Source: Galbibacter orientalis DSM 19592 (GTDB taxonomy: Bacteria; Bacteroidota; Bacteroidia; Flavobacteriales; Flavobacteriaceae). Taken from it: a stretch of DNA of 64,000 nucleotides. The notes beneath the pieces are model-generated. The model was given only the letters and a program-made list of their open reading frames with translations, made no database searches and had not been told where the DNA came from. The position numbers and the translations under genes were made by a program. Of this stretch, positions 54,378-58,187 are shown piece after piece. Each line of letters starts with the position of its first letter. The first letter of the stretch is position 1. The stretch is from positions 496,001 through 560,000 of the forward strand of contig NZ_JH651379.1 in the NCBI RefSeq assembly GCF_000260115.1. The letters run 5' to 3'.

Positions 54378-57300
54378 CTAGTGTTTTTGAATGATTAATC
54401 TGGTGTTCACTTCATCAAATGCAATTTCTGTACCATTATCTAGATTCTCTTCGAAATTAAGCTGTGCAGTTAACGTTTCTGCTTTAATATATTCAATATT
54501 ATTTTCAACAGCTTTTTCAATAAATCCATCTTTTTGCAACCTTACATCGATTTTGTCTGTTACATCAAAACCGGAATCTTTACGTAAATTCTGAATTCTA
54601 TTTACTAATTCTCGAGCCACGCCTTCATTACGTAAATCATCTGTAATAGTTACATCTAACGCTACTGTGATTGCACCTGAACTTGCTACTAACCACCCTT
54701 CTATGTCTTGTGATGAAATCTCAACTTCATCGATTCCTAAAGTAATGTTTTTTCCATTAATTTCCATAAGGATTTCCCCATTACGTTCAATTTCTTGAAT
54801 ATGAGATTGTTCAAACTTATCTACTTCATTGACAATCAACTTCATATCCTTTCCAAAACGAGGTCCTAAAACCTTGAAATTTGGCTTTATTTGCTTAACT
54901 AACAGCCCTGAAGCATCATCTATTAACTCAATTTCTTTTACGTTTACTTCAGATTTTATCAACTCCTCAACTCCTTTAATCTCATCTCTTTGAGCTTCGT
55001 CAAGTATAGGAATCATAACCCTTTGCAGCGGTTGACGTACTTTTATCATTTCCTTTTTTCGGAGTGAAAGCACTAAAGATGAGATTGTTTGCGCTTTCTC
55101 CATCTTACGTTCCAATAACTTATCAACAAAGTTTTCTACAAATTGAGGGAATTCTGCCAAGTGTACACTTTCATAATTCTCTTTATTTGTAGTACTTACC
55201 AGGTCTTTATACAACTGATCCATATAAAATGGAGCTATTGGCGCCCCTAACTTAGCTACTGTTTCCAAGCAAGTATAAAGCGTTTGGTATGCAGAAATCT
55301 TATCTTTTTCATACTCTCCTTTCCAAAAACGCCTTCTACATAAACGCACATACCAGTTACTTAAATTCTCTTGAACAAATTCTGAAACAGCTCTAGCTGC
55401 ACGAGTTGGTTCATATTCAGCATACGCTTCATCTACTTTCTGGATCAAAGTGTTTAATTCTGAAAGTATCCAACGGTCTATTTCCGGACGTTCATTTAAA
55501 GGAATATCATCTTCTGCATACGTAAAACCATCAATATTTGCATATAAACTAAAAAAAGAATAGGTGTTGTACAGCGTTCCGAAGAATTTTCTACGAACCT
55601 CAGCAATTCCTTCTAAATCAAATTTTAAGTTATCCCAAGGGTTCGCGTTAGAAATCATATACCAACGTGTAGCATCTGGACCGTACTCATCCAACGTTTT
55701 AAATGGATCTACTGCATTTCCTAATCGCTTAGACATTTTCTGTCCGTTTTTATCCAATACCAAGCCGTTCGATACTACGTTTTTATATGCAACTGAGTCA
55801 AACACCATGGTACCGATTGCATGCAAAGTATAAAACCAACCTCGGGTTTGATCTACCCCTTCAGCAATATAGTCTGCGGGGAAAAAGCCTCCCCCTAGCC
55901 CCCTCCCAAGGAGGGGGGACTTTAATTCTTTAGCTATTTTTGAAAGAACAGTATCTATATCTCCAATAACTTCTTCATTAGCAAACCTAATAACTTTATA
56001 ACCTAAATCTTCTAAAATCTCAGTTCTAAGAGCATCTGCTTGTTGAATTTCGGGTTGCGAATGATACCCTCCATCTACCTCAACAATTAGTCGTTGAGAA
56101 AGACAAACAAAATCAACTATAAACTCATCTATTATATGTTCTCTTCTGAACTTAAAACCTTCTAATTTTTTTGTTCTTAAAGATTCCCACAAGATTTTTT
56201 CAGCATCTGTTGAATGTTTTTTGCCTTCTTCTTTTAATTGCTTTAATAATTTATAGGAAGAATTTCTTGCTGTTTCATATTTAGGAGAAACTTTCTCTCC
56301 CCCTTGGGGGGAGTTGGAGGGGGCTTCAAACGGATAATGCCACTGTGCATAAGGCATCGACCCAGAATCAAACCAAACATCTATTAAATCTGCTTCACGT
56401 TTCATTGGTTTTCCAGATGGAGCTACCAATGTAATTTTGTCCACTACATTTTTATGAAGATCTACTTTGTTGTAGTTATCTTCACTCATATTACCTACTT
56501 CAAAATCAGCAAAAATATCAGCTTCTAAAACTCCTGCTTCTACGGCTTTTGCCATTTCAGCTTTTAGTTCTTCTATAGAACCAATTACCACCTCTTCTTT
56601 TCCATCTTCGGTACGCCATATTGGTAATGGAATTCCCCAGAAACGAGAACGCGATAAATTCCAGTCGTTTGCATTTTGCAACCAATTTCCAAAACGACCT
56701 TCTCCAGTTGCTTTTGGCTTCCAATTGATCGTTTTATTTAATTCGTACATTCTATCCTTAACTTCGGTTACTTTAATAAACCAAGAATCTAATGGATAAT
56801 ACAATACAGGTTTATCTGTTCTCCAACAGTGTGGGTAACTATGGACGTATTTTTCAACCTTAAAGGCTTTATTTTCTTCTTTTAGCTTGATTGCTATTTC
56901 TACATCTACCGATTTTTCTGGAGCTTCTCCATCCGCATAATATTCATTCTTTACATACTTTCCTCCAATTTCAGGAAGTTCAGCTCTAAAACGGCCTTGC
57001 AAATCTACCAATGGAACAGGGTTATCGTTCTCATCTAACACCAACATAGGTGGAATTTCTGGAGTTGCTTCTTTGGCAACCTTAGCATCATCCGCCCCAA
57101 AAGTAGGCGCTGTATGTACAATACCTGTACCGTCTTCTGTGGTTACAAAATCTCCCGAAATTACTCTAAAAGCATTTTCTGGATTTTGATATGGCAATGC
57201 ATATGTTAGCAACTGCTCATATTCAGCTCCAACCATAGCCGCTCCTTTTCCTTCTGCAATTACTTGAAATGGTATTTTCTTTGCTGCTGAAGTATAATTA

Positions 57301-58187
57301 GTAAAATCTTCTTCTGAAGTAGCCTCAAAATACTTCCCTGAAAATTGTTTTTTCAATAATGGTTTTGCCACTACTACATTGATAGGCTCAAAGGTATATT
57401 GATTAAATGTTTTTACTAAAACATAATCAATTTTAGGTCCAACTGTTAATGCGGTATTAGACGGAAGTGTCCACGGAGTGGTTGTCCAAGCTAAAAAATG
57501 AACTGTTCCAAAACCTTTTAAAAACTCAGGCAAGGTTTCTTCCTTCGCTTTAAATTGCGCCACAATGGTAGTATCGGTAACATCTTGATAGGCTCCTGGC
57601 TGATTAATTTCATGCGAACTCAATCCAGTTCCTGCCTTTGGAGAATATGGCTGAATAGTATACCCTTTATACATCAAATCTTTAGTATAGATTTGCTTGA
57701 GCAACCACCAAACACTCTCCATATATTTTGGCTTATAGGTAATATATGGATCTTCCATATCTACCCAATACCCTATTTTACGGGTCATGTCGTTCCAAAT
57801 GTCTGTGTAACGCATCACCGCTTTTTTACAAGCTTCGTTATATTCTTCTACCGATATTTTAGTACCGATATCTTCTTTGGTAATTCCTAGTTCTTTTTCA
57901 ACACCAAGCTCTACAGGAAGACCATGCGTGTCCCACCCTGCTTTTCTTTTTACCTGAAAACCTTTTTGAGTTTTATAGCGACAAAAAATATCTTTGATTG
58001 CACGTGCCATTACATGATGAATCCCTGGCAATCCGTTAGCAGAAGGAGGTCCTTCATAAAACACAAATGGTTCCTTCCCTTCTCTGCTAGTGATGCTTTT
58101 TTCAAAAATAGCCTGCTCTTCCCAAAACTTTAAAACTTCTTCTGCAGTTTTAGGCAAATCCAATCCTTTATATTCTGTAAACTTCAT
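54378..58187 (-). CDS. ileS: isoleucine--tRNA ligase carrying an in-frame DUF559 insertion
   Basis: The 1269-residue protein is about 140 longer than usual. The catalytic core is intact: YEGPPSANGLPGIHH (the HIGH region, 55-58), editing domain LAWTTTPWTLPSNTAL, LIDVWFDSGSMPYAQWHYPFE (to residue 621), then after the insert FPADYIAEGVDQTRGWF (from 769) and KMSKR (817-821), followed by the anticodon domain. Residues 622-767 form a DUF559 domain that replaces the short loop normally linking HYPFE to FPADY. Everything on both sides reads in one frame, so the full protein is presumably made and must still charge tRNA-Ile unless the genome has another copy. dksA-like follows by 4 bp. Confidence 0.97.
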   Translation of the reverse strand: MKFTEYKGLDLPKTAEEVLKFWEEQAIFEKSITSREGKEPFVFYEGPPSANGLPGIHHVMARAIKDIFCRYKTQKGFQVKRKAGWDTHGLPVELGVEKELGITKEDIGTKISVEEYNEACKKAVMRYTDIWNDMTRKIGYWVDMEDPYITYKPKYMESVWWLLKQIYTKDLMYKGYTIQPYSPKAGTGLSSHEINQPGAYQDVTDTTIVAQFKAKEETLPEFLKGFGTVHFLAWTTTPWTLPSNTALTVGPKIDYVLVKTFNQYTFEPINVVVAKPLLKKQFSGKYFEATSEEDFTNYTSAAKKIPFQVIAEGKGAAMVGAEYEQLLTYALPYQNPENAFRVISGDFVTTEDGTGIVHTAPTFGADDAKVAKEATPEIPPMLVLDENDNPVPLVDLQGRFRAELPEIGGKYVKNEYYADGEAPEKSVDVEIAIKLKEENKAFKVEKYVHSYPHCWRTDKPVLYYPLDSWFIKVTEVKDRMYELNKTINWKPKATGEGRFGNWLQNANDWNLSRSRFWGIPLPIWRTEDGKEEVVIGSIEELKAEMAKAVEAGVLEADIFADFEVGNMSEDNYNKVDLHKNVVDKITLVAPSGKPMKREADLIDVWFDSGSMPYAQWHYPFEAPSNSPQGGEKVSPKYETARNSSYKLLKQLKEEGKKHSTDAEKILWESLRTKKLEGFKFRREHIIDEFIVDFVCLSQRLIVEVDGGYHSQPEIQQADALRTEILEDLGYKVIRFANEEVIGDIDTVLSKIAKELKSPLLGRGLGGGFFPADYIAEGVDQTRGWFYTLHAIGTMVFDSVAYKNVVSNGLVLDKNGQKMSKRLGNAVDPFKTLDEYGPDATRWYMISNANPWDNLKFDLEGIAEVRRKFFGTLYNTYSFFSLYANIDGFTYAEDDIPLNERPEIDRWILSELNTLIQKVDEAYAEYEPTRAARAVSEFVQENLSNWYVRLCRRRFWKGEYEKDKISAYQTLYTCLETVAKLGAPIAPFYMDQLYKDLVSTTNKENYESVHLAEFPQFVENFVDKLLERKMEKAQTISSLVLSLRKKEMIKVRQPLQRVMIPILDEAQRDEIKGVEELIKSEVNVKEIELIDDASGLLVKQIKPNFKVLGPRFGKDMKLIVNEVDKFEQSHIQEIERNGEILMEINGKNITLGIDEVEISSQDIEGWLVASSGAITVALDVTITDDLRNEGVARELVNRIQNLRKDSGFDVTDKIDVRLQKDGFIEKAVENNIEYIKAETLTAQLNFEENLDNGTEIAFDEVNTRLIIQKH
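55887..56324 (-). mobile_element. DUF559 nuclease-like domain element inserted in ileS
   Basis: The 438-bp (146-codon) segment encodes a complete DUF559 (Vsr-fold) domain: STDAEKILWESLR (E663), GFKFRREHII (R681-R682), FIVDFVC (D692), LIVEVDGGYH (E703, D705, H709) and VIRFANEEV. It has no Met codon in frame, so it cannot be made alone. The ends are GC-rich and imperfectly inverted: coding-strand GCCCCCTCCAACTCCCCCCA at the 5' end against CCTCCCAAG-type sequence on the opposite strand at the 3' end, each containing its own hairpin (CTCCCCC/GGGGGAG and CCCCCTCC/GGAGGGGG). This has the look of a mobile protein-coding insertion. Confidence 0.9.

Follow-up and report, generated by a model that had tools for sequence, protein, structure and literature searches.

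A DUF559 nuclease domain bounded by inverted hairpin ends lies in frame within the isoleucyl-tRNA synthetase of Galbibacter orientalis and is likely a homing-like mobile element

The window considered here (the whole stretch of 64,000 nucleotides analysed from Galbibacter orientalis DSM 19592) harbors an isoleucyl-tRNA synthetase (IleRS) gene on the minus strand (54378..58187), encoding 1269 amino acids in a frame that is open straight through an inserted element. The host part N-terminal to the insert (56325..58187, minus strand, residues 1-621) ends with the letters ...QWHYPFE, the element as translated covers 146 codons (55887..56324, minus strand, residues 622-767) without a single Met codon, and the host part C-terminal to it (54378..55886, minus strand) starts with FFPADYIAEGVDQTRGWFYTL... 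and carries the KMSKR motif, the anticodon-binding domain and DUF5915. Junction peptides of this filled gene read HYPFEAPSNSPQGG... on the left and ...GLGGGFFPADYI on the right, and the in-frame position is directly shown. At E 1e-100 no second IleRS match is present in the G. orientalis genome, the single match being the filled gene. An assembly artefact was rejected, given that a second genome of the genus (G006) is filled at the same IleRS site.

The left element end (5′ in the coding sense; 56297..56324, minus strand) reads GCCCCCTCCAACTCCCCCCAAGGGGGAG, an outer C-run plus a hairpin, and is translated as APSNSPQGGE. The right end (3′ in the coding sense; 55889..55921, minus strand) is inverted relative to the left one and translated as SPLLGRGLGGG; its reverse complement is GCCTCCCCCTAGCCCCCTCCCAAGGAGGGGGGA, and a small hairpin is found at each end. 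The arms of the two ends form an 18-nt pair with 78% complementarity. An end pattern that matches the left end of the insert had no occurrence in 100 shuffles of the window and is found at four further places in the genome, all outside ORFs of at least 80 aa, with a control pattern returning no matches. At two intergenic loci of the same genome (L009 and L010), which is without a Y1 transposase match, repeats around GCTGGTGCGCGATTGTATCGCGTTCCAC and GCCGCACGAATCCTTTCGTGCGG adjoin CCCC-type hairpins. Separately, the right end (55886-55920, minus strand) gave a weak Rfam match to the whalefall-1 RNA (18.8 bits, threshold 37, E 0.043), and it is conceivable that members of this RNA family are hairpin ends of the DUF559-element kind.

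Between the ends lies a DUF559 / Vsr-like PD-(D/E)XK nuclease domain (55923..56228, minus strand). The Pfam scan assigned residues 654-755 to DUF559 (PF04480; E 9e-35), with class I synthetase stretches before and after, at 119.2 bits against a curated Pfam cut-off of 20.6 and PD-(D/E)XK-like residues intact; it is the single DUF559 match genome-wide. Residues E663, D692, E703, D705 and H709 correspond to insert positions 42, 71, 82, 84 and 88, from which positions 71, 82 and 84 are invariant and 42 and 88 at least 90% conserved in an alignment of 33 inserts. Foldseek, starting from the predicted domain (mean pLDDT 77.7), found as its closest structure 3hrl, a Neisseria endonuclease-like protein (E 1.6e-7), followed by the I-Bth0305I catalytic domain 3r3p (8.4e-5), mitoribosomal proteins (3e-3) and E. 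coli Vsr (0.066), and a sequence-profile search reaches the same two solved structures, 3hrl and 3r3p (the latter with E 2.7e-6). The insert domain, as modelled, satisfies the criterion of an EDxHD/Vsr catalytic fold. A larger model that included the insert (IleRS residues 400-900, 9 sequences) reached a mean pLDDT of only 37 and was not used. Two claims of the sequence-only reading that preceded this analysis therefore held: a 146-codon in-frame block in IleRS with a full set of DUF559 residues and no Met, and GC-rich inverted ends that are themselves translated.

Considering the seven genomes of the genus, two are filled (G. orientalis and G006) and five are DUF559-free, with 84-95% identity on both sides of the site. 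The empty loop HYPFE-NKEKIDDKEA-YPADYI compares with HYPFE-[insert]-FPADYI in the filled gene, about 10 codons being replaced, without any target duplication apparent on inspection by eye. One of the five DUF559-free genes (G004, locus L131) reads HYPFENKEKIDQGGGFFPADYI, with QGGGFFPADYI at its right. This is in all likelihood a scar in which the native left loop is joined to what looks like the right end of the element, and it suggests that the element was once present, with loss or recombination afterwards. Empty, filled and scarred alleles are shown by the sequences themselves.

Out of 299 family genomes, 294 had an IleRS match and, among the match rows inspected, only G. orientalis and G253 presented one unbroken full-length match; G166 and G199 had a single weaker match. 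An ancient family-wide IleRS domain was thus rejected, filled alleles being rare among family genomes. The insert was found at the IleRS loop in 11 distinct genomes, one of which is Marinilabilia, a member of another order. In a host IleRS tree of 10 filled and 31 empty genes, the latter being the top-scoring relatives of the window (IleRS insert L053, without the motif, was left out), filled genes are scattered among empty ones. Approximately unbiased (AU) tests on 10 inserts (again without L053) indicate that insert data reject the host topology (p 0.017) and host data reject the insert topology (p 2e-7), a result that is modest in one direction. Parsimony on the same tree requires 8 filled/empty changes for a shuffled mean of 9.1, with 204 of 1000 shuffles at or below the observed count, which rests on tips that were not randomly sampled. 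Host and insert identities correlate for IleRS (Spearman 0.40), therefore part of the inheritance is vertical.

These comparisons bear on several expectations of the sequence-only reading. A clean empty site with a possible target duplication was not found: the loop is replaced and no duplication is seen by eye. Contrary to the earlier notion, an essential gene does not tie the cell to the insert permanently, because a scarred allele exists. Three outcomes had been named as refutations, namely the same insertion in most Flavobacteriia IleRS, a frameshift or splice that takes it out of the protein and a lack of similar ends elsewhere in the genome. So far as they could be checked, none came true: filled IleRS genes are uncommon across the family, the reading frame has no interruption and similar ends occur at the four further places given above.

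Hosts are not limited to IleRS. Among 397 genomes of the family, 188 have DUF559 and many of the listed matches lie within open frames of 346 to 1287 aa, which corrects the earlier assumption that DUF559 is usually a small free-standing protein: in Bacteroidota it is often embedded. Inserts were found in LeuRS (at least two sites), MetH (three sites), RecG, UvrD-like helicases (two loci), a methylmalonyl-CoA mutase fusion, a Peptidase_M14/MpaA-like protein and an M23 peptidase, as well as in HsdR, HsdM, Eco57I-like, Type ISP, MmeI-like and N6_N4 methylase proteins. Others lie at the N- or C-terminus, or close to it, in HisD, HemD, HemF, a His_biosynth protein, a GATase_5 protein and an N-formylglutamate amidohydrolase. 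Including IleRS, 20 host gene families could be named, and the presence in many unrelated hosts is shown; the L222 and L223 frames had no match besides nuclease families. These hosts come from 20 loci plus 100 fetched regions (L051 was dropped as a duplicate of L123), the regions nearly all picked for open frames longer than 200 aa, therefore host counts are not frequencies. In a phylum sample, the insert profile matches 151 of 395 genomes at E 1e-20. A phage origin was rejected, with a match in 2 of 50,697 phage records at 35% identity.

Two further loci are worth describing. In G005 (L012/L124), a free-standing DUF559 gene has, by eye, similar repeat units of ~85 bp with inverted ends on both sides. 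In a plasmid of Synechocystis sp. B12 (L234), a hairpin-ended DUF559 gene separates two annotated coding pieces, of which the second is annotated as BREX PglX, and it could represent an insertion in a methylase gene.

The MetH gene presents two inserts in each of three genomes (G220, G903 and G910). In G220 (L068), the copies give an ungapped alignment of 418 bp with 82.5% identity, bounded by AGCCCCCC and GGGGGGCT, and they are sisters in the domain tree with a support of 0.904, a placement expected if one copy arose from the other. Two sharp-ended copies in a single gene are thereby shown. No close MetH relatives of G220 were found within its genus besides G220 itself. Both remaining genomes are Flavobacterium (L258 in G903, L259 in G910) and have MetH inserts at the a- and b-sites; their copies are 72-76% alike with shorter, gapped alignments, and the b-copies group together (support 0.658) and not with their own a-copies.

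In other genomes the MetH b-site is occupied by a 30-nt hairpin scar (L074), by an in-frame mini-element (L069) or by an empty loop. The mini-insertions at the b-site of L069 and L106 are in frame and without DUF559, and that of L106, SASLSTRHAKLDSAS, resembles a different repeat peptide. The loop at this site thus looks like a hot spot where translated palindromic repeats settle.

Within Flavobacterium, a MetH match was found in 224 of 239 genomes and at least 22 of the 224 are filled. The 30 MetH loci returned include 22 with the domain, and readable junctions were available for 29 (21 filled, 8 empty), the domain of L264 being at a contig edge. MetH is filled in G708; eight empty genes are 96-99% identical in its flanks and its nearest filled relatives are more distant. 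By the criterion applied to homing elements, in which one site is repeatedly occupied and close relatives hold empty alleles, both the IleRS site and the Flavobacterium MetH site qualify. On the right, the insert directly adjoins GK(I/V)L or its GR variant in 19 of the 21 filled loci (exceptions are L253 and L256), and the left junction lies at several positions. We may speculate that a fixed right and a variable left junction would suit a process starting at one end. Insertion in MetH replaces 8-12 host residues, again with no sign of a target duplication on reading by eye.

A tree of 89 domains groups inserts largely by target site: all 10 RecG inserts form one clade, as do 10 out of 11 from IleRS, both from HisD and 18 of 25 from LeuRS, which has further lineages in addition. 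The exception in IleRS is L053, outside the IleRS clade. The nine MetH a-site inserts fall in a clade of 10 that includes copy b of G220, and L092, the other b-site insert, branches immediately outside it. Four pairs of IleRS inserts had dN/dS values of 0.079, 0.105, 0.195 and 0.067, and copies a and b of G220 MetH had 0.054, with the caveat that synonymous change approaches saturation in several pairs. Wherever it could be computed, dN/dS of the host flanks was 0.010-0.040, a stronger constraint than that on the inserts. The insert is under purifying selection, a signal that could partly reflect an essential host gene.

Element ends are similar across most inserts in unrelated hosts and open in the host frame, so that a common end anatomy is shown. 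Hairpins with at least 4 GC pairs were found at 90 of 111 left ends, 90 of 111 right ends and both ends of 77 of 111 inserts, compared to 20 of 221 control windows. The left/right inverted-repeat score had a median of 10.5 versus 7.5 in controls and was above every control in just 47 of 110 inserts. Covariation between the two ends of the same element, expressed as the permutations reaching the observed value, is clear for MetH (0/5000) and LeuRS (5/5000), moderate for IleRS (118/5000) and absent for RecG (4871/5000).

At the genome level, the end motif was detected in 124 of the 188 DUF559-bearing genomes and in 31 of the 209 that lack the domain (odds ratio 11, 397 genomes), and at least five copies are found in 57 of 188 and 6 of 209, respectively; genomes with weak DUF559 matches were analysed both included and excluded. 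The ends are thus shown to be associated with DUF559. An association with DUF559 holds for the control pattern too (odds ratio 2.6, p 7e-4), therefore composition or genome size contributes. These tests ignore relatedness, and DUF559 elements add their own ends to the count, which the five-copy threshold removes in part. Considering a set of 249 genomes in which Y1 transposases (RAYT) were searched for as well, the end motif follows DUF559 with an odds ratio of 10.9, being 14.6 with RAYT and 10.3 without it. The association of the motif with RAYT had odds ratios of 0.76 and 1.08 within the two DUF559 classes, and RAYT alone versus ends had 1.8 (p 0.08). The make-up of this set was itself inferred.

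Hairpins of this sort were also seen elsewhere. G148, which is without a DUF559 match, has single 28-bp hairpin ends inside long open frames (L236, L237 and L238), several of them in a near-identical context. Flanks of six plasmid loci from other phyla, inspected by eye and without a statistic, have clear similar hairpin repeats in L230 and L234 (cyanobacterial) and L235 (Photobacterium), the remaining three being less clear.

Taken as a whole, we consider it likely, with a probability of roughly 0.78, that the insert is a hairpin-ended, homing-like mobile element persisting as a translated domain, without intron or intein. Its cutting activity, the role of DUF559 as the driver of mobility and the presence of the domain in the mature protein are inferred. 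This reading is supported because empty and filled alleles are found in one genus, along with scars, 20 host families, three double MetH genes and no intein or intron in Pfam and Rfam scans. The proposal made before any comparison, of a mobile element entering coding genes in frame, tolerated there and homing-like without splicing, is to this extent supported, with mobility resting on comparison only. Evidence against it includes the non-clean insertion without a target duplication, the inverted-repeat score that is above every control in just 47 of 110 inserts, the lack of end covariation in RecG, the lineage splits of L053 and LeuRS and the G903 and G910 copies that are not sisters.

In the scenario we propose, the element has ~0.42-0.44 kb, inverted GC-rich hairpin ends and coding capacity for one DUF559 (Vsr/EDxHD-like) nuclease domain. 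It sits in conserved genes, with the host frame open through both ends, and would be made as an extra domain of the enzyme in a variable loop. The putative nuclease would cut or nick element-free alleles at the cognate loop, and repair from a filled allele would copy the element in (homing), mainly during DNA exchange between strains; rarely, the whole end-to-end unit might land at a new site. Survivors would be only those landings that are in frame and in tolerant loops, and partial loss would result in hairpin scars. Short end-only relatives are located between genes. A bolder version, on which we would not venture beyond an even bet, holds that a large class of hairpin-ended elements, spread across phyla and comprising full as well as end-only forms, owes its mobilisation to DUF559 nucleases and persists as translated, unspliced domains of indispensable proteins, a homing system that hides in the host protein fold.

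Other explanations account for part of these observations. The insert could be a passenger, with a RAYT/Y1 or insertion sequence (IS) transposase moving the hairpin ends in a MITE-like manner and DUF559 as mere cargo. In its favor, the ends resemble REP/MITE palindromes, end-only repeats are found between genes, and genomes with RAYT tend to have DUF559 as well (odds ratio 3.2). However, G. orientalis has no Y1 (TnpA_REP) transposase match at E 1e-10 and the ends are tied to DUF559 with or without RAYT, and not to RAYT itself. RAYT-driven repeats were rejected on these grounds, that is, no Y1 match in this genome and no RAYT association once DUF559 is accounted for; other IS transposases were outside the test, and we regard the passenger model in general as unlikely. 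Even less probable is domain accretion, in which a nuclease was recruited for the benefit of the host and then inherited or lost. Purifying selection on inserts would agree with it, and HsdR, HsdM, Eco57I-like, Type ISP and RecG proteins could plausibly use a nuclease. On the other hand, IleRS, LeuRS, MetH, HisD and HemD are also hosts and, by inference, have no evident use for one, the distribution is patchy within the genus and in Flavobacterium MetH (at least 22/224), translated hairpin ends accompany the domain in unrelated hosts, and the insert is present twice in each of three MetH genes.

A degenerate intron or intein, whose segment would be removed from RNA or protein, is all but excluded. 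EDxHD nucleases have been reported from introns and a DUF559-containing gene has been discussed among intein-containing genes (PMC3943268, PMC9403480), but the Pfam scan returned no splicing (Hint) domain and Rfam no family above threshold. Specifically, no group I or group II intron RNA matched at the gathering score, the best hit (18.8 vs 37 bits) being to a different family. The DUF559 match leaves only ~44 codons of the insert uncovered, and in the window the reading frame crosses both ends without interruption. Other embedded inserts are also read through, but these were mostly chosen for long open frames.

The hairpin-ended homing-like reading finds partial parallels in known systems. 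I-Bth0305I, an EDxHD homing endonuclease, shares the catalytic fold, mostly site-specific clades and a patchy distribution. It is a mobile intron protein according to its PDB name, long and composed of several domains, and forms a dimer on its target of nearly 60 bp (PMC3943268), whereas the present insert is a single domain with hairpin ends, translated in a host enzyme, for which no splicing element was found. A DUF559-containing gene of Thermosynechococcus was assigned to the EDxHD homing family and discussed under intein-containing genes (PMC9403480); in contrast to that intein context, no intein domain is found in the present insert. Rickettsia palindromic elements (RPE) are palindromic and many of them are in frame within unrelated metabolic genes (PMC10969869). 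They have ~150 bp with a conserved peptide and no enzyme is named in the relevant passage (PMC10969869), while the elements described here specify a complete nuclease domain flanked by inverted hairpin ends. In the sense of open frames, and by analogy in logic, they fulfil the RPE-like criterion of a palindrome-bearing sequence translated in frame in unrelated genes.

REP/RAYT systems and MITEs are short GC-rich hairpin repeats between genes that have an autonomous partner. The present ends differ in that they track DUF559 and not a Y1 transposase, and the element enters coding sequence in frame. Classical IS or DDE transposons leave a target site duplication; here none is seen by eye and the loop is replaced. 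Free-standing DUF559 proteins such as VsrA of Caulobacter and NGO0050 (3hrl) belong to the same domain family, VsrA being a stand-alone protein proposed for mismatch repair (PMC12907096). No description of in-frame nuclease insertions or DUF559-linked palindromes was found in the literature searched, which was limited to titles and abstract openings, with subscription papers mostly outside.

If this reading is true, many uncharacterised DUF559 genes would gain a function, the mobility of hairpin-ended elements, and a set of GC-rich repeats in Bacteroidota genomes would be explained. It would also show that a selfish nuclease can inhabit genes like that of IleRS with no splicing at all, provided that a loop tolerates it. 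The acceptance of whole foreign domains in protein loops would become testable, with natural in-frame insertion sites on offer in IleRS, LeuRS, RecG and MetH.
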